A stretch of 64,000 nucleotides of DNA from Lachnospiraceae bacterium (GTDB lineage Bacteria; Bacillota; Clostridia; Lachnospirales; Lachnospiraceae): positions 1 to 64,000 of the forward strand of contig JAFXQK010000012.1 in the NCBI GenBank assembly GCA_017527205.1, in the 5' to 3' direction. Position numbers and translations under genes: made by a program. Below are positions 1,205 to 60,228 of this stretch, piece after piece; position 1 is the first letter of the stretch, and every line of letters begins with the position of its first letter. A model generated the notes under the pieces. That model was not told the DNA's origin, ran no database searches, and saw nothing but the letters and a program-made list of their open reading frames with translations.

Positions 1205-1277
1205 GGGTGGTTAGCTTACACGGTGAAAGCGGCGGACTGAAAATCCGCAGAGAACGGGTCGGTACCGTTACCCCCCA
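1205..1277 (+). tRNA. tRNA-Phe(GAA), aberrant T-loop
   Basis: Anticodon arm GCGGA-CTGAAAA-TCCGC. The acceptor GGGTGGT pairs with ACCCCCC except for one mismatch. T stem AACGG/CCGTT encloses GTCGGTA instead of the canonical TTCRANY, so T54 is lost. No CCA is encoded. Confidence 0.75.
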
Positions 1278-1280
1278 CTT

Positions 1281-1379
1281 GGCACCTTGGTCTATTGGCT
1301 AGGACGCCAGCCCTTCACGCTGGAAAGGACGGGTTCCAGGCGCACGGATCTTCGATCCGGGCTAAGCCCGCAGGTGCTA
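1281..1379 (+). tRNA. tRNA-Glu(UUC) with T-loop insert and C33
   Basis: Acceptor GGCACCT/AGGTGCT and anticodon arm CCAGC-CCTTCAC-GCTGG are perfect, but position 33 is C. The T-loop (1334-1366) is 33 nt instead of 7: TTC is followed by a palindromic insert, then the stem closes with CCCGC. The insert is the reverse complement of that in the tRNA at 2592. Confidence 0.75.
1337..1366 (+). repeat. T-loop palindromic insert, copy in tRNA-Glu
   Basis: Begins CAGGCGCA, has the hairpin CGGATC-TTC-GATCCG and ends GGCTAAG. The reverse complement is found in the T-loops at 2647, 3084 and 4553, and a related free copy is at 60146-60180 in the same orientation as here. Confidence 0.8.
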
Positions 1380-1384
1380 CTTAA

Positions 1385-1509
1385 GCTTCGTTAGGCAAAT
1401 TGGCTACGCCGCAGGTCTTCGCTTCGCTACGGTCGTCGCAATACCATCGTCCCCCGGACGATGTGCGACCTCAAGCCTGAGATGCTCGGTTCGAACCCGG
1501 CACGAAGTA
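1385..1509 (+). tRNA. Interrupted tRNA, possibly Arg(UCG), anticodon-loop insert
   Basis: Acceptor GCTTCGT/ACGAAGT and anticodon stem CAGGT/GCCTG are intact. The loop starts CTTCG at 1417-1421 and resumes at AA 1473-1474; a 50-nt palindromic insert lies between. If the break follows position 36 as in its neighbours, the anticodon is TCG. The T-loop is canonical (TTCGAAC). Identity is uncertain because the break runs through the anticodon region. Confidence 0.55.
1421..1471 (+). repeat. Palindromic insert family P, copy A
   Basis: Contains CATCGTCC/GGACGATG within an outer GGTCG-CGCA/TGCGACC pairing. It matches 1754-1793 almost exactly and matches 1668-1718 in reverse complement. Confidence 0.75.
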
Positions 1510-1548
1510 CTTCCCGAGAGGGAATGCAATTAAAACATAATAAAACTT

Positions 1549-1582
1549 GGGATCAGGAAGTTGGCGCTTCCCCTGATCCCGC
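1549..1582. repeat. Inverted repeat between tRNAs
   Basis: GGGATCAGG and CCTGATCCC with an inner AAG/CTT pairing form a strong hairpin but no T tract follows. This is the only clear structure in the spacer 1510-1627. Confidence 0.5.
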
Positions 1583-1667
1583 AAAACCTTGAAATGAAAG
1601 TACTTTGACAAAAGAAGATGTATATATCGGAATGTGGTGCAGTTTGGCGAGCATGCGTGATTTGGGG

Positions 1668-1718
1668 CGCATACCGTCCGGGGGACGGTAGTTTTGCGCC
1701 GACCGTAGTGAAACGAAG
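1668..1718 (-). repeat. Palindromic insert family P, copy B (inverted)
   Basis: Reverse complement resembles copy A from GTCTTCG through CTACGGTCG to TGCGCCC, with substitutions in the stem matched on both sides (CCGTCC/GGACGG instead of ATCGTCC/GGACGAT). It sits in the anticodon loop of tRNA-Pro. Confidence 0.7.
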
Positions 1719-1753
1719 ACACGAGGTCGCAGGTTCGGTCTGCATTTCATTCC

Positions 1754-1793
1754 GGTCGTCGCAATACCATCGTCCCCCGGACGATGTGCGACC
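1754..1793 (+). repeat. Palindromic insert family P, copy C
   Basis: Same core as copy A (GGTCGTCGCAATACC through TGCGACC) within the T-loop of tRNA-Pro. Confidence 0.75.
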
Positions 1794-1805
1794 TGTCATT
1801 CCGAT

Positions 1806-1958
1806 TTCCGGGTAGCTCAACTGGCAGAGCGGTCTTGTCGCAAGCTTTGCTTGCGATCCCGAGCTTTGCTCGGGACGGCCGAATGGCCGCCACGCGTGCA
1901 GGCAAAGCCTGCACTATGGTTAACCGAAAGATTGTGAGTTCAAGTCTCACCTCGGGAG
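1806..1958 (+). tRNA. Interrupted tRNA, probably Thr(UGU), 82-nt insert after the anticodon
   Basis: Acceptor TTCCGGG/CTCGGGA (with G-U pairs), D arm GCTC/GAGC and T arm GTGAG-TTCAAGT-CTCAC are good. The anticodon loop reads CTTGT (1834-1838), is interrupted from 1839 to 1920, and resumes TA-ACCG. The anticodon stem is only 3-4 bp (CGGT/ACCG). Reading the junction as GTT would make it Asn, but the Asn 5' stem strand is missing. Confidence 0.5.
1839..1920. repeat. Four-hairpin insert family H, copy 1
   Basis: Four consecutive stems: CGCAAGC/GCTTGCG, TCCCGAGC/GCTCGGGA, CGGCC/GGCCG and GTGCAGGC/GCCTGCAC, mostly closed by TTT or AAA loops. It is nearly identical to 3331-3412, and both copies lie directly behind anticodon position 36. 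Confidence 0.8.
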
Positions 1959-1975
1959 CTTCAATAAAAATCATA

Positions 1976-2046
1976 GCAGAGTGGACTGGAGAGGCTCCAG
2001 CCGGCCCCCATAAGGCCTGTTACGCGGGTTCAAATCCCGTCTCTGC
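1976..2046 (+). tRNA. tRNA-Met-like (CAU), irregular anticodon loop
   Basis: T arm GCGGG-TTCAAAT-CCCGT is canonical and the ends GCAGAG/CTCTGC pair. The anticodon stem GGCC/GGCC closes a 6-nt loop CCATAA, so U33 is missing. The D region holds a strong CTGGAG/CTCCAG stem. Confidence 0.55.
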
Positions 2047-2050
2047 AACT

Positions 2051-2137
2051 TTGGGCGGGTAACCCGTAACTGGCAGCGGTCCTGACTGTAAATCAGGTGG
2101 CTTAGGCTTCTGAAGGTTCGAGTCCTTCCCCTCCCAC
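2051..2137 (+). tRNA. tRNA-Tyr(GUA)
   Basis: Anticodon arm CCTGA-CTGTAAA-TCAGG, a class II variable region as expected for Tyr, and T-loop TTCGAGT. Acceptor TGGGCGG/CCTCCCA has one mismatch. No CCA is encoded. Confidence 0.8.
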
Positions 2138-2150
2138 TTAAGTATTAAAT

Positions 2151-2222
2151 GCGTGATTAGCCAGCTGGCAGAGCAGCGGACTCTTAATCCGAAGGTCCAG
2201 GGTTCGAACCCATGATCACGCA
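2151..2222 (+). tRNA. tRNA-Lys(CUU)
   Basis: Acceptor GCGTGAT/ATCACGC, anticodon loop CTCTTAA and T-loop TTCGAAC. This is an ordinary cloverleaf. Confidence 0.85.
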
Positions 2223-2226
2223 CTTT

Positions 2227-2298
2227 GGTTTCGTAGTATAATGGCTAATACTCTCGGTTGTCTCCCGAAGGATGAGGGTTCGATTCCCTCCGAAATCG
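2227..2298 (+). tRNA. tRNA-Asp(GUC)
   Basis: Acceptor GGTTTCG/CGAAATC, anticodon loop TTGTCTC, T arm GAGGG-TTCGATT-CCCTC and discriminator G. Confidence 0.8.
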
Positions 2299-2303
2299 CT
2301 TAT

Positions 2304-2375
2304 GCAGACATGGTACAATGGTTAGTATGCGTCCTTGCCAAGGACGAGATGCGAGTTCGATTCTCGTTGTTTGCT
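2304..2375 (+). tRNA. tRNA-Gly(GCC)
   Basis: Acceptor GCAGACA/TGTTTGC, anticodon arm CGTCC-TTGCCAA-GGACG and T arm GCGAG-TTCGATT-CTCGT. Confidence 0.85.
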
Positions 2376-2376
2376 C

Positions 2377-2435
2377 TGAAGTCGGGGTAATGGCAGCCAT
2401 CTGATTTACAATAACATCGGGCCCCAATGACTTCA
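2377..2435 (+). tRNA. tRNA-like element without T arm, possibly Val(UAC)
   Basis: Only 59 nt: TGAAGTC pairs with GACTTCA, a D-arm-like GGTAATGGCAGCC follows, then CTGAT/ATCGG encloses a 10-nt loop containing TTTACAA. There is no TTCRANY T-loop at all. It is either a decayed gene or a truncated tRNA. Confidence 0.35.
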
Positions 2436-2439
2436 ACTA

Positions 2440-2510
2440 GCCTTCCTCGTTCAAGGGTAGGACACGAGACTGTTAATCTTGGTATCTGGGTTCGATTCCC
2501 AGGGAAGACG
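2440..2510 (+). tRNA. tRNA-Asn(GUU)
   Basis: Anticodon arm CGAGA-CTGTTAA-TCTTG, T arm CTGGG-TTCGATT-CCCAG and acceptor GCCTTCC/GGAAGAC with one mismatch. Confidence 0.8.
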
Positions 2511-2517
2511 CTTTAAC

Positions 2518-2590
2518 GCCAGGCTGGCGCAATTGGCAGCGCTACTGCCTTGTAAGCAGAAGGTTCAGGGTTCGAGTCCCTGGTCTGGCT
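2518..2590 (+). tRNA. tRNA-Thr(UGU)
   Basis: Acceptor GCCAGGC/GTCTGGC, anticodon loop CTTGTAA and T arm CAGGG-TTCGAGT-CCCTG. An uninterrupted counterpart of the split Thr-like gene at 1806. Confidence 0.85.
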
Positions 2591-2591
2591 C

Positions 2592-2693
2592 TGCAGAAGA
2601 GTGAAACGGATTATCACTGCCGGTCTCATAAGCCGGAAATAACGGGCTTAGCCCGGATCGAAGATCCGTGCGCCTGGACTCCCGTTTCTGCAA
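2592..2693 (+). tRNA. tRNA-Met(CAU) with T-loop insert
   Basis: Acceptor TGCAGAA/TTCTGCA, D stem GTGA/TCAC and anticodon loop CTCATAA. T stem ACGGG (2642-2646) and CCCGT (2681-2685) enclose 34 nt instead of 7: the palindromic insert, opposite in orientation to that of tRNA-Glu, followed by the remnant ACT. Confidence 0.75.
2647..2677 (-). repeat. T-loop palindromic insert, copy in tRNA-Met
   Basis: Starts CTTAGCC, hairpin CGGATC-GAA-GATCCG, then TGCGCCTGG. Its reverse complement equals the insert of tRNA-Glu. Confidence 0.8.
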
Positions 2694-2775
2694 TTGGAAA
2701 ATAAATCAAACACAGAGGGAAGACACATGTTGCTACTACGATTACGACTTCAACTGAATAACGCAAACTATGTAT

Positions 2776-2850
2776 GCCCCCGTGGCCCAATTAGGCAGAG
2801 GCGCGGCGCTTAAGACGCTGAAAGTGTGGGTTCTAATCTCACCGGGGGTA
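2776..2850 (+). tRNA. tRNA with Leu(UAA) anticodon, short variable arm
   Basis: Acceptor GCCCCCG/CGGGGGT, loop CTTAAGA, T arm GTGGG-TTCTAAT-CTCAC and discriminator A. The variable region is about 4-5 nt, whereas bacterial tRNA-Leu is normally class II. Confidence 0.7.
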
Positions 2851-2877
2851 TCTGCGGAATACTATGTTCCGTGGCAT

Positions 2878-2952
2878 GCTCACGTACCCCAATCGGGCAG
2901 AGGGACACGGCCCAGAACCGTGACAGTACGGGTTCGAATCCCGCCGTGAGTA
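2878..2952 (+). tRNA. tRNA with Leu(CAG) anticodon, short variable arm, C33
   Basis: Acceptor GCTCACG/CGTGAGT, anticodon arm CACGG-CCCAGAA-CCGTG and T arm ACGGG-TTCGAAT-CCCGC. Position 33 is C and the variable region is 5 nt (ACAGT). Confidence 0.7.
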
Positions 2953-2953
2953 C

Positions 2954-3028
2954 GCTCGCGTACCCCAACCTGGCAGAGGGAGTCGGCTAAGAACCGGTAC
3001 AGTGTGGGTTCGAATCCCATCGCGAGTA
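2954..3028 (+). tRNA. tRNA with Leu(AAG) anticodon, short variable arm
   Basis: Acceptor GCTCGCG/CGCGAGT, anticodon arm GTCGG-CTAAGAA-CCGGT and T-loop TTCGAAT. A34 is rare outside Arg(ACG) in many bacteria. Only one base separates it from the preceding tRNA and one from the next. Confidence 0.7.
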
Positions 3029-3029
3029 C

Positions 3030-3130
3030 GGCACAGTGGCGCAATTGGAAGACGCAACGCACTCAAGATGCGATTTTTACAGGCTTAGCCCGGACCGAAG
3101 GTCCGTGCGCCTGAAGTCCTGCCTGTGCTA
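3030..3130 (+). tRNA. tRNA with Leu(CAA) anticodon and T-loop insert
   Basis: Acceptor GGCACAG/CTGTGCT, anticodon arm CGCA-CTCAAGA-TGCG and short variable region. T stem ACAGG/CCTGC encloses a 34-nt loop (3084-3117) made of the T-loop palindrome plus a short tail. Confidence 0.65.
3084..3114 (-). repeat. T-loop palindromic insert, copy in tRNA-Leu(CAA)
   Basis: CTTAGCC, hairpin CGGACC-GAA-GGTCCG, then TGCGCCTG. Compared with the Met copy, T and A at paired stem positions are both changed (GGATC/GATCC to GGACC/GGTCC), so pairing is kept. Confidence 0.8.
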
Positions 3131-3162
3131 TTAACATCGTAAGAGAAGAGGAGAGAAAAACA

Positions 3163-3207
3163 ATGATGCAGGAAATGGTAAGGCGAAAACGCAAACGAAT
3201 GATTTAA
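3163..3207 (+). CDS. 14-codon minigene between tRNAs
   Basis: ATG 3163 follows GAGGAGAGAAAAAC and encodes MMQEMVRRKRKRMI, a very basic peptide, ending at TAA 3207. The end overlaps an inverted repeat GCAAACGAAT/ATTTGTTTGC. It could be a leader or a chance ORF; the RBS is the only support. Confidence 0.25.
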   Translation: MMQEMVRRKRKRMI

Positions 3208-3217
3208 TAATTTGTTT

Positions 3218-3290
3218 GCGTCTGTAGCCAAGAGGTTATGGCGGCGGGCCTTTAACCCGTATACCGTGGGTTCGAATCCCACCAGGCGTA
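3218..3290 (+). tRNA. tRNA-Lys(UUU), C33
   Basis: Acceptor GCGTCTG/CAGGCGT, anticodon arm GCGGG-CCTTTAA-CCCGT and T arm GTGGG-TTCGAAT-CCCAC. Position 33 is C instead of U. Confidence 0.8.
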
Positions 3291-3294
3291 CTAT

Positions 3295-3449
3295 TGGGAC
3301 ATAGCGCAATTGGCAGAGCTGTCGTCTAAGTCGCAAGCTTCGCTTGCGATCCCGAGCTTTGCTCGGGACGGCCGAATGGCCGCCATGCGTGCAGGCAAAG
3401 CCTGCACTACGTACACGACCGGTTTCCGGTTCGAGTCCGGATGTCCCAA
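3295..3449 (+). tRNA. Interrupted tRNA, Leu(AAG)-like, 82-nt insert after the anticodon
   Basis: Acceptor TGGGACA/TGTCCCA, T arm TCCGG-TTCGAGT-CCGGA and anticodon stem GTCGT/ACGAC are all perfect. The loop reads CTAAG (3326-3330), is broken by 3331-3412, and resumes AC. Excising exactly 82 nt would give a normal 7-nt loop CTAAGAC. Confidence 0.7.
3331..3412. repeat. Four-hairpin insert family H, copy 2
   Basis: Nearly identical to 1839-1920 with few substitutions, for example the first loop TTC instead of TTT. It sits at the same place relative to the anticodon. Confidence 0.8.
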
Positions 3450-3475
3450 CTTCAAGATGTGATACTACAGGTAGA

Positions 3476-3504
3476 ATGACAAAAGAAAATGACACTGTTA
3501 TAAT
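3476..3504 (+). promoter_or_regulatory. Promoter of the HTH leader, shared motif with rtcB
   Basis: ATGACA at 3476-3481, 17-nt spacer and a perfect TATAAT at 3499-3504. The -35 is embedded in ACAGGTAGAATG-ACAAAAG, and the same block with one extra G stands at 34109-34129 in front of rtcB. Confidence 0.75.
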
Positions 3505-3556
3505 AGAATCAAGAGATCAAGAGAGAGCGCCGCAGGCGTTCAGAAAGGGAAAAACG

Positions 3557-3664
3557 ATGACAAACTTTAACTTCTGGCAAATTTCATGTTCATCTCAGCG
3601 AAGCCAGCAGATTAGCAGATGGTCTGTTAGAGTGCGCATAAAATCTGGAAAGTTAAAGTCATAA
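3557..3664 (+). CDS. 35-residue leader ORF
   Basis: ATG 3557 behind AGAAAGGGAAAAACG, ending at TAA 3664. It begins MTNFNFWQIS and is Ser/Arg rich at the C-terminus. It lies between a strong promoter and a terminator, like the ORF at 34194-34337. It may be a leader peptide rather than a functional protein. Confidence 0.35.
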   Translation: MTNFNFWQISCSSQRSQQISRWSVRVRIKSGKLKS

Positions 3665-3696
3665 GCATAGAGGAATATATACGCCTTCATTGAGTG

Positions 3697-3732
3697 ACCT
3701 TTTCAGATTTCATGATCTGAGAAGGTTTTTTT
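3697..3732 (+). terminator. Rho-independent terminator before the HTH gene
   Basis: ACCTTTTCAGAT pairs with ATCTGAGAAGGT and seven T follow. The next gene's RBS (GGAGG) starts 4-5 nt downstream. Confidence 0.8.
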
Positions 3733-3747
3733 GTTGGAGGAAAAGAG

Positions 3748-3972
3748 ATGCCGGTGATAGACATAAAGGCAACGGGAGAGAAGATTAACGAACTTAGGAA
3801 CAGGAATGGAATAACGGTAAAGGATATACAAGTGTTTATGGGCTTTGCAAGCCCTTATCCAGTGTATAAATGGATCAACGGCAAAAACTTGCCTACGCTA
3901 GATAATTTGCTTGCCCTTGCTGAGTTGTTTGGCGTTAAGATGGATGACATCGTCGTTGCAAGGAAGTTATAA
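3748..3972 (+). CDS. Small XRE-type helix-turn-helix regulator inside the tRNA array
   Basis: 74 residues, ATG 3748 with RBS TTGGAGGAAAAGAG. The protein has the Cro/CI fold pattern: TGEKINELRNRNGITVKD, then a recognition-helix region FASPYPVYKWINGKN, then LPTLDNLLALAELFGVKMDDIVV. It is clearly paralogous to the protein at 35801-36061 directly behind rtcB, sharing PVID at the N-terminus, TVxD, YKW, PTxDNL and FGVxxDDI. tRNA genes flank it on both sides. It probably binds DNA; the shared promoter motif at 3466-3485 and 34109-34129 is a candidate operator, which is inference. Confidence 0.85.
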   Translation: MPVIDIKATGEKINELRNRNGITVKDIQVFMGFASPYPVYKWINGKNLPTLDNLLALAELFGVKMDDIVVARKL

Positions 3973-3982
3973 ATTTCATAAT

Positions 3983-4067
3983 GCCGAGGTGGCGGAGAGG
4001 CCTAACGCGTCGGTCTTGAAAACCGAAGGCCCGAAAGGGTCCGGGAGTTCGAATCTCCCCCTCAGTG
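3983..4067 (+). tRNA. tRNA-Ser(UGA)
   Basis: Anticodon arm TCGGT-CTTGAAA-ACCGA and a long variable arm GGCCCGAAAGGGTCC, the proper class II shape. T-loop TTCGAAT. It starts 10 nt behind the HTH stop codon. Confidence 0.8.
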
Positions 4068-4071
4068 CTAT

Positions 4072-4143
4072 AGGCTGGTAGTGTCAATGGCAGCATGTCG
4101 GTCTCCAAAACCGAAGGTCATGGTTCGAGTCCATGTCGGCCTG
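4072..4143 (+). tRNA. tRNA-Trp(CCA)
   Basis: Acceptor AGGCTGG/TCGGCCT, anticodon loop CTCCAAA, T-loop TTCGAGT and discriminator G. Confidence 0.85.
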
Positions 4144-4145
4144 TA

Positions 4146-4335
4146 TGCCGTCTTGGGGTAGGCGGCGGACCTTCGTCCGTTCCAGTCTTCGACTGGAATC
4201 ACGGGCAAAGCCCGTGACATGCCCGCCCGTCCCGAACACGGGTGATCGTTACGATTTGGGACAGTCGCAGACTCTGCCTGCGATCCGGAGCGAAGCGACG
4301 GACGAGCCGTAGGGCTCGCCTCGATTCTCTCCATT
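4146..4335. repeat. Tandem palindromes between tRNA-Trp and tRNA-Gln
   Basis: Consecutive stems: CGGAC/GTCCG, TTCCAGTC/GACTGGAA, TCACGGGC/GCCCGTGA, GTCCC/GGGAC enclosing ATCGT/ACGAT, GTCGCAG/CTGCGAT, TCCG/CGGA and CGAGCC/GGCTCG. Loops are TTC, AAA and similar, in the style of the inserts in the tRNAs. A weak T-loop-like CTCGATTCTC near the end hints at one heavily decorated or destroyed tRNA gene, but no acceptor stem could be paired. Confidence 0.6.
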
Positions 4336-4343
4336 ACAACTGA

Positions 4344-4415
4344 TGGCGCTTAGCACAATGGTGAGTGCACCGGACCTTGACTCCGGAGATGCCAGTTCGA
4401 TCCTGGCAGTGCCTG
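4344..4415 (+). tRNA. tRNA-Gln(UUG), C33
   Basis: D stem GCAC/GTGC, anticodon arm CCGGA-CCTTGAC-TCCGG with C33, and T arm GCCAG-TTCGATC-CTGGC. Acceptor TGGCGCT/AGTGCCT has one mismatch. Confidence 0.75.
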
Positions 4416-4425
4416 CTGAATATGT

Positions 4426-4497
4426 GATCCTGTAGTCAAAAGGCTAAGGCGGCTGGCTGCAACCCAGCAGGTGGGCGTTCGATTCGCCCCGGGATCT
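4426..4497 (+). tRNA. tRNA-Cys(GCA)
   Basis: Acceptor GATCCTG/CGGGATC, anticodon arm GCTGG-CTGCAAC-CCAGC and T-loop TTCGATT. Confidence 0.85.
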
Positions 4498-4500
4498 TAA

Positions 4501-4599
4501 GTCGTGATAGGCTAATGGATAAACCTGGCGGCTACGACCCATCCATTCTGAGCATAGCCTGGATCTTTGATCCGTGCGCGTGGAATCTCAGTCACGATG
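4501..4599 (+). tRNA. tRNA-Arg(ACG) with T-loop insert
   Basis: Acceptor GTCGTGA/TCACGAT and anticodon loop CTACGAC. T stem CTGAG (4548-4552) and CTCAG (4587-4591) enclose 34 nt: the palindromic insert followed by the remnant GAAT. Confidence 0.7.
4553..4583 (-). repeat. T-loop palindromic insert, copy in tRNA-Arg
   Basis: CATAGCC, hairpin GGATC-TTT-GATCC, then GTGCGCGTGG. This is the most diverged of the four T-loop copies but has the same length and position. Confidence 0.75.
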
Positions 4600-4603
4600 T
4601 TAC

Positions 4604-4675
4604 AGGCGCTTCGCATAACGGTGAGTGCACCGGACTCTGACTCCGGGGATGGAAGTTCGACCCTTCCAGCGCCTG
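4604..4675 (+). tRNA. tRNA-Gln(CUG)
   Basis: Acceptor AGGCGCT/AGCGCCT, anticodon loop CTCTGAC and T arm GGAAG-TTCGACC-CTTCC. Confidence 0.85.
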
Positions 4676-4679
4676 CTTT

Positions 4680-4751
4680 GCCCGCGTAGCTTAAAGGATA
4701 GAGCATGGGGCTTCTACCCTCATGATCACCGTTCGATTCGGTGTGCGGGTA
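4680..4751 (+). tRNA. tRNA-Arg(UCU)
   Basis: Acceptor GCCCGCG/TGCGGGT, anticodon loop CTTCTAC and T-loop TTCGATT. Last gene of the array. Confidence 0.85.
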
Positions 4752-4768
4752 TTGTGATGGATGTAATA

Positions 4769-6729: not shown

Positions 6730-7656
6730 ATGTCAAAAACGAGTATGAAGGAGAGAAACAAAGCTATTAGACTGGCCTGGGAAAGAGAGCAACAATTAGT
6801 TCAGGAAGGGAAAGCAACCAGAGACTGGACTAAGGAACAGCAGGAAGATATTCTGAATCCAGAAAAAGGTAAAGCATACGATGATCAGGGAAGGACATTT
6901 GTGGGTCAGCACATGAAAAGTGCGGCTAAATATCCAGAATACCAAGGAGACCCCAATAATATTCAATTTCTGACATACGATGAGCATTTGGAAGCTCATA
7001 AGGGGAGCTGGCAAAATCCGACTAATTGGTATTATGATCCTGTTAAGAAGGTATTTCATGATTTCGGTGATGGAGAGATTGTTCCTTGTAAAATTTTAGA
7101 TTTGAGTAATCCATTAGTCGTGATCGAACCCACTGTGCAGAAAGATAAAGAAATTGTTGAAGGGGACTCAATAAAATCAAAGGGTGAAGATCAGGATGTT
7201 TCATCACCAAAAAGCAAACAAGAATCACCTTCACACATAGTAACGACAGGAAAAAATGTTGCAAAATCAACTCCTACAACAAAGCCATCAGGTATAATGA
7301 AGGCTCCTAAATCTGAAAATGGATTTATTAAATGGCTCAAATCTGTGGGAAGATTTATCGTTAACCATCCGATAGAATCTCTTGAGATAGTTGGCACAGT
7401 GATCGTAGGAGGAATAGAATTGGTATCGGCTATTAGTGGGAGCCGAAATAGAGGTAATGGGTCGAACATACCAAATCCAGGAAGCAACACCACGAATTCC
7501 TCTAAGACAGATATTACTGCTAAAGTTGCTGATATTGTAGAAAAAGCAACCAGAGCTGAAAATGATGTTACAGGACATAAACAAAGATATCATACGAAAG
7601 ATGGAGTGATATGGAAAGATAAAGCTCCATATCACAGGGGAGGAAAAGATAACTAG
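6730..7656 (+). CDS. HNH-like nuclease toxin with membrane segment
   Basis: 308 residues. The N-terminal 110 residues contain VGQHMKSAAKYPEY, then GDPNNIQFLTYDEHLEAHKG and SWQNPTNWYYDP, the layout of His-Asn-His nucleases found in polymorphic toxins and phage-type endonucleases. A Ser/Lys-rich linker follows (about 140-195), then a hydrophobic segment around residues 215-240 (IESLEIVGTVIVGGIELVSAI) and a basic tail ending HRGGKDN. The nuclease at the N-terminus, not the C-terminus, is unlike classical polymorphic toxins. It overlaps nothing but is tightly linked to the SUKH gene. Confidence 0.6.
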   Translation: MSKTSMKERNKAIRLAWEREQQLVQEGKATRDWTKEQQEDILNPEKGKAYDDQGRTFVGQHMKSAAKYPEYQGDPNNIQFLTYDEHLEAHKGSWQNPTNWYYDPVKKVFHDFGDGEIVPCKILDLSNPLVVIEPTVQKDKEIVEGDSIKSKGEDQDVSSPKSKQESPSHIVTTGKNVAKSTPTTKPSGIMKAPKSENGFIKWLKSVGRFIVNHPIESLEIVGTVIVGGIELVSAISGSRNRGNGSNIPNPGSNTTNSSKTDITAKVADIVEKATRAENDVTGHKQRYHTKDGVIWKDKAPYHRGGKDN

Positions 7657-34422: not shown

Positions 34423-35631
34423 ATGTTTGAAATTAAGGGAAAGGTAAATACGGCAATCTGCTACGCGACAGTAGTAGAGGACGAAGCAATAGAGCAGATC
34501 CGCCGGATGTGTGATTACTCCTTCACGGAGGGTTCCAAAATCCGCATCATGCCGGACGTGCACGCGGGAAAGGGCTGCACGATCGGAACGACCATGACGG
34601 TTGCGGGAAAGGCCGTGCCCAACGTGGTTGGCGTCGACATCGGATGCGGCATGTATACGGTGGAGCTTGGTAAGGCTGCCGTCGATTTTGAAAAGGTGGA
34701 CGAGGCGGCGCACTTTATTCCTTCCGGCATGAATATCTGGGAGGGACGGACGGAACGATTTGATCTGGAATCCCTTCGTTGCTATCGCGAGCTGAAAAAT
34801 ACAAAGTGGCTGGAGAGAAGCCTGGGAACGCTGGGCGGCGGAAATCATTTTATCGAGATTGATGAGGCGTCAGACGGAACAAAGTACCTGGTGATCCACA
34901 GTGGAAGCAGAAACCTTGGAAAGCAGGTTGCGGAGTGGTATCAGCAGCTTGCCATTGATTTACATAAAGGTATTGGGGAATATCTTGAGGCGAGGGAGGA
35001 GCTGATCCGTACGCTGAAGGAGCAGGGCCGTAAGGGCGAGATCCAGCAGGCACTGAAAAACCTCAAATGGGAGAAATACAATGGTGAGCCTGACATGCCG
35101 GCAGACCTTTGTTATTTAGAGGGGAAGTATCTGGAGGATTACCTGCATGACGTGGAGATTTGTCAGCGTTTTGCAAGAAGAAATCGTGAGAAGATGGCGG
35201 AGGTGCTTTTAGAGCGCACGGGCATGAGTGGCAGCAATGCCTTCCACACCATTCATAACTATATCGATACGGAGGAGATGATCCTTCGGAAGGGTGCCAT
35301 TGCGGCACGTCAGGGAGAAAAGGTTTTGATCCCCATCAACATGCGGGACGGAAGCGTTCTTGCCGTTGGAAAGGGAAATCCCGATTGGAATTATTCTGCG
35401 CCTCATGGCGCGGGGCGCGTTCTGTCGCGTACCATGGCGAAAAAGTCACTTTCGCTGGAGGAATATCAAGAGACCATGAAGGGAGTCTACACGACTTCCG
35501 TAAATGAGAGCACGTTGGATGAGGCCCCCATGGCATATAAGTCCCTGGCGGACATCATCGACGTCATACGAGAGTCCGTTGACGTCATTGACGTCATGAA
35601 ACCAATTTACAACTTTAAGGCAACAGAGTAG
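34423..35631 (+). CDS. rtcB: RtcB-family RNA ligase
   Basis: 402 residues, the normal length. All hallmark blocks are present: RIMPDVHAGKGCTIGTTM, GVDIGCGM with metal ligands Asp72 and Cys75, LGGGNHFIEID, HSGSRNLGKQV (His159), FHTIHNY, and SAPHGAGRVLSR with His328 as the guanylylated residue. RtcB joins RNA 2',3'-cyclic phosphate (or 3'-phosphate) to 5'-OH ends with GTP and Mn2+. It is the tRNA-splicing ligase of archaea and animals and an RNA repair enzyme in bacteria. No rtcA or rtcR is nearby; instead a leader with terminator precedes it and a small HTH gene follows, the paralogue of the one inside the tRNA array. Confidence 0.95.
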   Translation: MFEIKGKVNTAICYATVVEDEAIEQIRRMCDYSFTEGSKIRIMPDVHAGKGCTIGTTMTVAGKAVPNVVGVDIGCGMYTVELGKAAVDFEKVDEAAHFIPSGMNIWEGRTERFDLESLRCYRELKNTKWLERSLGTLGGGNHFIEIDEASDGTKYLVIHSGSRNLGKQVAEWYQQLAIDLHKGIGEYLEAREELIRTLKEQGRKGEIQQALKNLKWEKYNGEPDMPADLCYLEGKYLEDYLHDVEICQRFARRNREKMAEVLLERTGMSGSNAFHTIHNYIDTEEMILRKGAIAARQGEKVLIPINMRDGSVLAVGKGNPDWNYSAPHGAGRVLSRTMAKKSLSLEEYQETMKGVYTTSVNESTLDEAPMAYKSLADIIDVIRESVDVIDVMKPIYNFKATE

Positions 35632-35800: not shown

Positions 35801-36061
35801 ATGATGAGAAACATCCCCGTAATCGACGTAATCAGAACGGGGCAAAGAATTACGGAGCTTAGAAAGGCAGCAGGCTTAACCGTGCGGGACCTGCAGGAAA
35901 TCTTTGGATTTACCACGCCTCAGGCAATCTACAAGTGGCAGCACGGAACGGCAATGCCTACCATCGACAACCTGGTTGTGTTGTCCGTGGTATTCGGCGT
36001 TTCCGTTGATGACATCTTAATCCTTCAGGGTGCTGACACGGCGCTGGCACTCGGAGCATAA
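35801..36061 (+). CDS. Small XRE-type HTH regulator behind rtcB
   Basis: 86 residues, ATG 35801 or 35804, RBS AGGAGGAGC. Pattern PVIDVIRTGQRITELRKAAG, TVRDLQEIFGFTTPQAIYKWQHG, PTIDNLVVLSVVFGVSVDDILI matches the HTH protein at 3748-3972 over nearly its whole length. It likely regulates rtcB or shares operators with its paralogue; the ACAGGTAGAATG element ahead of both leaders is the best candidate. It is 169 bp behind rtcB with an inverted repeat between. Confidence 0.85.
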   Translation: MMRNIPVIDVIRTGQRITELRKAAGLTVRDLQEIFGFTTPQAIYKWQHGTAMPTIDNLVVLSVVFGVSVDDILILQGADTALALGA

Positions 36062-60017: not shown

Positions 60018-60228
60018 AAACCAAGCGCCTCGCAAAGCGAGGCATTTGGTTTCACCCGAGCGTAAACGAAATAAAAACAAAAGTCGCGAAGCGACGACGG
60101 CTGCGAAGCAGACGGTTTTTATGAGTGAAAGAGGAAGGACCCGAGCCAGGCGCGTGGAAATCTGCGATTTCCAGGCTAAGCACGAAATAAAAACAAAAGT
60201 CGCGAAGCGACGACGGCTGCGAAGCATA
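60018..60228. repeat. Cluster of dispersed palindromic repeats
   Basis: AAACCAA-GCCTCGC-AAA-GCGAGGC-TTTGGTTT stands at 60018-60053. A 45-bp direct repeat (ACGAAATAAAAACAAAAG through GCTGCGAAGCA) occurs at 60066-60110 and 60183-60227 and includes the palindrome GTCGC-GAA-GCGAC. Between the repeats lies a copy of the tRNA T-loop element. Confidence 0.75.
60146..60180 (+). repeat. Free-standing copy of the tRNA T-loop element
   Basis: CCAGGCGCGT, hairpin GGAAATC-TGC-GATTTCC, then AGGCTAAG. The ends CCAGGCGC and GGCTAAG are identical to the insert of tRNA-Glu at 1337-1366; only the central stem is longer. It shows the insert is a dispersed element rather than part of tRNA. Confidence 0.8.

Follow-up and report, generated by a model that had tools for sequence, protein, structure and literature searches.

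Why do eight tRNA genes of one bacterial array carry palindromic DNA in their loops, and is this DNA spliced out, tolerated, or a mark of dead genes? The window analysed here is a 64,000-nucleotide (nt) stretch that opens a 75-kb contig (JAFXQK010000012.1) in the draft genome of a gut-type Lachnospiraceae bacterium (3.87 Mb in 80 contigs; hereafter G000). At positions 1205-4752 it holds a tRNA array, in which 17 ordinary tRNA genes found by ARAGORN and Rfam are packed into 3.5 kb together with the eight interrupted ones. ARAGORN called none of the interrupted genes (0/8) while reporting 17 other tRNAs in the window. A sequence-only reading had described nine palindromic inserts of three families in eight tRNA genes with otherwise normal arms, and all of these are present in the sequence; we refer to the families as P, T and H. 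We consider it probable that the inserts are palindromic repeats, likely selfish, rather than introns, and that the interrupted tRNAs, by prediction, are processed but do not serve translation. The pattern reads as recurrent insertion of mobile palindromes with a residual constraint on the tRNA fold.

Empty and filled sites in sister arrays

We compared the 3.3-kb array region with 138 genomes of the genus and found orthologous arrays in six of them, including its own: G000 (a second array), G123 (two), G069, G141, G036 (two) and G011 (two, one a fragment). Below, G000a denotes the window array and G000b the second array of the same genome. Each interrupted gene (8/8) is matched by an uninterrupted ortholog in one or more sister arrays, which identifies the palindromes as DNA inserted into the genes. 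These orthologs were used to name the genes and to fix the breakpoints (Table 1). Within G000 itself, Asn is interrupted in the window array only, and Lys(CTT) in the second array only. Several insertions are common to species: Asn-H (G000 and G123), Ile-H and Leu-T (both G000 and G011), Arg-T (G000, G011 and G123), Pro-P (G000 and G141) and Lys-P (G000 and G069). Glu(CTC) holds P in both G000 and G036a, and the breakpoints differ, indicating that these were probably two events. In the two G036 arrays (L178, L179), eight tRNA genes have small hairpins of 20-28 nt in their loops, a set unrelated to these families.

We rejected an assembly artefact, because related inserts occur in the second G000 array and in other genomes. 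An origin from phages or plasmids was also rejected: exact P, T and H patterns had no match in viral contigs, and blastn of the array returned only single tRNA-sized similarities, the best places covering 4% (phages) and 2% (plasmids) of the query.

The breakpoints refine what had been read from the window. Gene positions stand except for three starts that were off by 1 nt (now 1627, 3294 and 2593), and a ninth interrupted gene had been missed, a tRNA-Ser(CGA) that has lost its 3' end here and is whole in relatives (by eye). H had been placed directly behind anticodon position 36 in two genes; in Asn this is wrong, as H precedes the anticodon and is followed by an undamaged GTTAA, and the anticodon stem is two pairs short. 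Removing H from the Ile gene can indeed give a 7-nt loop, but this loop (CTAATAC) differs from the CTTATAC of empty genes. The T inserts do lie in T-loops; rather than merely enlarging them, they replace the T-loop TTC, leaving RANY.

Stem pairs and substitution rates

The eight interrupted genes of the window keep 155/161 stem pairs of their empty orthologs; of the six pairs missed, two are artefacts that stem from an extra reference base at a gene start. Pair counts were disregarded for G069 Lys, which had a false reference, and for G025 Ser and G006 Arg, which had no close one. Comparing interrupted copies between arrays, we found fewer newly broken pairs than under random placement in Glu(TTC) (0 against 2.70), Leu (1 against 3.13), Ile (1 against 3.80) and Arg (0 against 3.34 for G123a-G011a; 0 against 1.85 for G000a-G011a). 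For Pro, the G000a-G141 comparison gave 0 against 5.50, with both backgrounds also occurring as empty genes. Three such comparisons had zero differences. In two interrupted genes both sides of a pair changed and pairing was kept, from C-G to A-T in Glu(TTC) and from C-G to T-A in Arg, which speaks for selection.

Substitution counts, which omit T-loops for the interrupted genes, gave the following differences per sites for interrupted genes, intact genes and spacers, respectively: 19/195, 33/526 and 11/82 between G000a and G011a; 6/201, 56/371 and 24/113 between G000a and G000b; 3/64, 48/1204 and 31/305 between G000a and G123a; and 7/64, 24/304 and 15/110 between G000a and G123b. The rates of interrupted genes thus fall between the intact-gene and spacer rates or beneath both. 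The suggestion that the array is a graveyard of dead genes does not fit these rates and the retained stems if plain decay is meant. It holds for some copies, since at least three are broken: G123b Asn is without its 3' acceptor strand (15/20 pairs), G036a Ser(CGA) keeps 19/27 pairs, and the Ser(CGA) of the window lacks its 3' end. In ViennaRNA predictions the acceptor stem was kept in 8/8 interrupted genes (mean pair probability 0.73-0.98). The predictions also showed Asn, Met, Leu and Ile losing arms that their empty orthologs form; this is weak evidence, as ViennaRNA also folds arms of several empty genes wrongly, those of Arg most.

The P, T and H palindromes

P is a 56-nt element with two stems that vary in sequence yet pair, and with fixed unpaired parts. 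It has 15 matches in G000 at E <= 0.01, and matches in 22/61 genomes, which comprise 22/37 of this genus and 0/24 from other families of the order. In wider named records P was found at no fewer than 80 loci, among the matches listed mostly in Lachnospiraceae or its genera. Over 67 distinct copies, 12/17 pairs had changes on both sides, with far lower values in slid controls, and 95.0% of pair cells were standard compared with 75.6% in shuffles; the hairpins of P are kept while the sequence varies. T is a 30-nt element of the form C(A/T)TAGC-hairpin-GCGC(C/G)TG, with nine copies in G000, five in tRNA genes and four elsewhere, and with matches in 4/61 sampled genomes. One T element lies at window positions 60147-60180, outside any tRNA gene. 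The opposite strand of T in Glu(TTC) may be accounted for by the palindrome TTCGAA, which would allow both orientations. H is a run of four hairpins; its two full copies in G000 are 98% identical over 80 nt, seven partial matches lie elsewhere in the genome, and G011 and G123 have one copy each. P is thus an interspersed repeat of Lachnospiraceae and T one of a few species of the genus, and both also occur outside tRNA genes. Copies dispersed as in interspersed palindromic repeats were found for P (15) and T (9), and weakly for H.

Many P copies outside tRNA genes (e.g. L216, L218, L227, L239 and L244) adjoin a preceding hairpin whose arm ends in GGGTTCG, the tRNA T-arm motif (by eye). Other copies lie in tRNA-Pro(CGG)-like 3'-fragments dispersed among metabolic genes (L060 5174-5229, 12756-12811 and 18841-18896; also L066 and L088). 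We considered such P-bearing fragments on contig C41 as attachment sites and dropped the idea: the ten intervening proteins that were scanned are metabolic, transport and signalling proteins by Pfam, with no integrase among them.

Sites of insertion

In a list compiled by hand from the arrays and from the mini-arrays of G006 and G020, 26/26 independent insertion events lie in or at the edge of loops: 11 in T-loops, 11 in anticodon loops, four in D-loops and none in stems. The probability of finding all events in loops is 3.9e-13 under uniform insertion and 1.5e-8 with a tolerance of 2 nt per loop edge. One listed gene, Leu(AAG) of G011, is incomplete because its contig ends there. Beyond the arrays, removing P revealed a tRNA at 5/90 named-genome copies (90/112 matches taken), compared with 1/83 in the control. 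This excision-and-ARAGORN test has low sensitivity: among 72 genus copies it found three named and two unnamed tRNAs, and more are visible by eye.

Weighing the explanations

If the inserts were introns, an RNase would cut at the hairpins and RtcB would reseal the exons. An rtcB-family gene does lie on the same contig, its regulator is paralogous to that of the array, and two excisions yield plausible loops, one rebuilding the empty Glu(CTC) loop and one giving the Pro loop TTTGGGA at the cost of one stem pair. Elsewhere, excision by an unknown route, as the sequence-only reading had entertained, found no support: no contiguous excision rebuilds the ancestral T-loop or a TTCRA loop in the T-family genes (0/4), nor the ancestral loop of Ile. 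The genome has no match to the tRNA_int_endo family (PF01974). That the inserts are not group I introns was read correctly, as they measure 30-82 nt and the 19 gathering-level Rfam matches in the window are to tRNA, TPP and c-di-GMP-I, with no intron family among them. Conserved introns would not be missing from sister arrays of G000 and of its relatives, as these inserts are, and the inserts differ between sister arrays. An RtcB-type ligase is unspecific here because 62/138 genus genomes have a match to one, and G141, which carries the Pro insert, is not among them. As protein-spliced introns the inserts fail on excision and on the endonuclease, and we regard this explanation as very improbable. 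We give no more credence to a scheme in which the hairpins lock spare tRNAs as reserves, so that under stress an RNase would open the anticodon-loop hairpins and RtcB would reseal the ends, in a regulon shared with rtcB. If true, this would be the first case of protein-spliced tRNA introns in a bacterium, derived from selfish palindromes.

The interrupted tRNAs might instead be made with their hairpins and still function, like tRNAs with enlarged loops. The retained stem pairs agree with this, as do rates near or below those of intact genes in the comparisons of G000a with G000b, G011a and G123a. We nevertheless think it unlikely, given the predicted loss of arms in four genes (with its weak control) and the broken copies elsewhere. 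Moreover, P or H beside or inside the anticodon loop would hinder decoding, and a T-loop without TTC would hinder formation of the elbow. Another possibility is that the machinery behind the movement of the palindromes targets loops that are single-stranded once a tRNA gene or transcript has folded, so that no selection is needed. The restriction to loops is what this predicts, P probably entered Glu(CTC) twice, and GTTCR or TTCGA occurs within 12 nt upstream of 24/72 P copies compared with 54/3240 random positions. This too appears doubtful, since P copies outside the arrays mostly lie elsewhere than in tRNA genes, many of them follow a GGGTTCG that belongs to the arm of another hairpin, and the compensatory changes in Glu(TTC) and Arg speak for selection.

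We prefer selfish palindromes that enter repeatedly and persist only in the loops of dispensable tRNA genes, and several observations weigh against this preference. Asn had as many newly broken pairs as random placement predicts (G000a-G123b, 3 against 2.98) and so shows no constraint; one Arg comparison shows hardly any (G123a-G000a, 1 against 1.53). The compensatory pairs of Pro and Ile may predate insertion, because both backgrounds exist as empty genes, and recombination between arrays could mimic some of the constraint. The status of H as a repeat family is weak, with only two full copies here. No match to the Y1 transposase (PF01797) of REP-associated tyrosine transposases (RAYT) was found in the 80-contig draft, a search that covered no other transposases. 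The event list was also compiled by hand: five anticodon events of G036 replace the first base or bases of the 3' anticodon strand, and events without a close empty ortholog were left out (G025 Ser and Tyr, L257 Lys, and L223-type Ser and His).

A mechanism that would join these observations supposes that the array is a backup tRNA operon, read into a single transcript, and that the cell can do without it in normal growth. Because of the shared transcript, a hairpin that disrupted a stem would impair the trimming of neighbouring tRNAs as well and would be removed, and hairpins in loops would persist until the gene decays. The residual cloverleaf constraint would then reflect processing of the array transcript. 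Entry may occur by template switching during replication or by hairpin transposition at short shared motifs, candidates being the GGGTTCG before P and a TTC|GAA centre for T.

Features of the window and its relatives

Table 1. Interrupted tRNA genes, their inserts and associated protein genes in the window
Feature	Position	Strand	Basis
tRNA-Glu(TTC), T-loop interrupted	1281..1380	+	alignment with empty G123b ortholog
T element, 30 nt, in Glu(TTC), after T-loop TTC, opposite strand	1337..1366	-	
tRNA-Glu(CTC), anticodon loop interrupted	1385..1510	+	empty orthologs G123a, G123b, G069, G141, G036b
P element, 56 nt, anticodon loop of Glu(CTC)	1415..1470	+	
tRNA-Pro(TGG), two P inserts	1627..1805	+	empty orthologs G123a, G123b, G069
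P element, reversed, anticodon loop of Pro(TGG)	1665..1720	-	
P element, T-loop of Pro(TGG)	1738..1793	+	
tRNA-Asn(GTT), interrupted 5' of anticodon	1806..1959	+	empty orthologs G000b, G069, G141
H element (four hairpins) in Asn(GTT)	1837..1918	+	
tRNA-Met(CAT), T-loop interrupted	2593..2692	+	empty ortholog G123a
T element in Met(CAT), in place of TTC	2647..2676	+	
tRNA-Leu(CAA), T-loop interrupted	3030..3130	+	empty orthologs G123a, G069, G141, G036a
T element in Leu(CAA), in place of TTC	3084..3113	+	
tRNA-Ile (TAT in relatives), anticodon loop interrupted	3294..3449	+	empty orthologs G123a, G069, G141, G036b
H element in Ile	3330..3411	+	
tRNA-Arg(ACG), T-loop interrupted	4501..4599	+	empty orthologs G069, G141
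T element in Arg(ACG), in place of TTC	4553..4582	+	
tRNA-Ser(CGA) remnant with hairpins inserted in both D-loop and T-loop; 3' end joined to that of an Ile(GAT)-like gene	4147..4340	+	by eye against whole copies in G123a, G069, G141 and interrupted copy in G011a
Small Cro/C1-type helix-turn-helix (HTH) gene, 74 amino acids, inside array	3748..3972	+	HTH_3, E 1.1e-7
rtcB-family RNA ligase gene, 402 amino acids, sole PF01139 gene found in genome, 30 kb from array	34423..35631	+	
HTH gene downstream of rtcB, paralog 49% identical to array HTH	35801..36061	+	

As a dense run of tRNA genes that recur elsewhere in the genome, the array has the form of an accessory array (trn operon); G000 has 32 further tRNA matches beyond its two arrays. 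The draft is no guide to which interrupted isoacceptors also have an intact copy, since even His and Ala tRNA genes are absent from it. Between the tRNA genes, at window positions 2379-2438, lies a short conserved element with a 7-bp outer stem (TGAAGTC/GACTTCA) plus GGGG/CCCC; it has no T-arm and no tRNA call, and related copies occur in G123a, G069, G141, G036a and G036b. Several arrays (G069, G036a, G123b, G000b and G011b) have inside or beside them a gene for a 171-amino-acid protein (L176 2988-3503; the same gene starts at L062 13699), which may be YkuK/DUF458-like. At L336 67-142 (G000:C16:30417-30490) ARAGORN reports a tRNA-Pyl, a tRNA-like gene with anticodon CTA that may encode an amber suppressor. 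The protein encoded at window positions 6730-7656 has a nuclease domain of the Tox-GHH HNH/Endo VII type and is likely a nuclease of the secreted-toxin type.

The rtcB gene and its HTH neighbour

Of 18 rtcB genes sharing 74% identity or more with that of the window, 13 are followed by an HTH gene of this kind within 60-190 bp, and in 4/13 of these a tRNA comes next within about 100 bp; the 18 include a pair of identical copies from one contig, and 5/20 regions were chosen for nearby tRNA matches. More distant rtcB genes had no HTH neighbour (0/5). In the complete genome G006, rtcB and the HTH gene adjoin a mini-array whose Arg(ACG) is interrupted by P. As a sole copy that Arg(ACG) would have had to yield a working product; we rejected this, because an intact one lies elsewhere in G006. 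From these neighbourhoods, the array and the RNA ligase may be joined in one translational-stress response through their HTH paralogs.

Comparison with known systems

We found no description of palindromic inserts in bacterial tRNA genes in literature titles and abstract openings, a search whose scope excluded most subscription papers. The occurrence of the same tRNA genes with and without hairpins is a natural experiment on what a tRNA gene tolerates. The arrays also bear on the movement of short bacterial palindromes for which no enzyme is known and on the possible origin of intron-like insertions, and the rtcB-HTH pair of Lachnospiraceae points to a regulator family common to tRNA arrays.

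Bacterial repetitive extragenic palindromic (REP) elements are short interspersed palindromes with many copies, mostly outside genes. The repeats here resemble them as short, many-copy interspersed palindromes that mostly lie outside genes, by description rather than by sequence, and differ in that some copies are inside tRNA genes and that this genome has no Y1 transposase family; on the transposase they fall outside REP elements in the strict sense. The tRNA introns of archaea and eukaryotes are inserts in the anticodon loop and elsewhere in tRNA genes. Here, by contrast, there is no intron endonuclease family, the T-family loops cannot be rebuilt and the sites are lineage-specific. Rickettsia palindromic elements (mentioned in passing in PMC6649704) are known from protein genes. 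Again by description and not by sequence, the inserts resemble them as palindromes within genes whose product shape may tolerate them, differ in occupying tRNA loops in Lachnospiraceae, and are not known to be related to them. Mobile hairpins that spread through a genome are also described for mitochondria: double-hairpin elements, the RHE of sponges (PMC2800124, which mentions repeats within protein and rRNA genes) and the palindromes of Volvox (PMC2670323); these belong to organelle genomes, and the available portions of both papers do not report bacterial tRNA loops.

For the array as a whole, the nearest counterpart is in Anabaena PCC 7120, where, according to the portion of PMC10272220 at hand, TrcR represses both rtcB and a silent trn operon of 26 genes, and translational stress induces the two. 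The Anabaena repressor belongs to the ribbon-helix-helix class and the neighbours here are of the Cro/C1 HTH type; co-regulation is suggested here by gene neighbourhood, and that portion of the paper reports no palindromic inserts. Both systems combine a long accessory tRNA operon with rtcB and a small regulator, and by this analogy the window array may be a backup tRNA operon.

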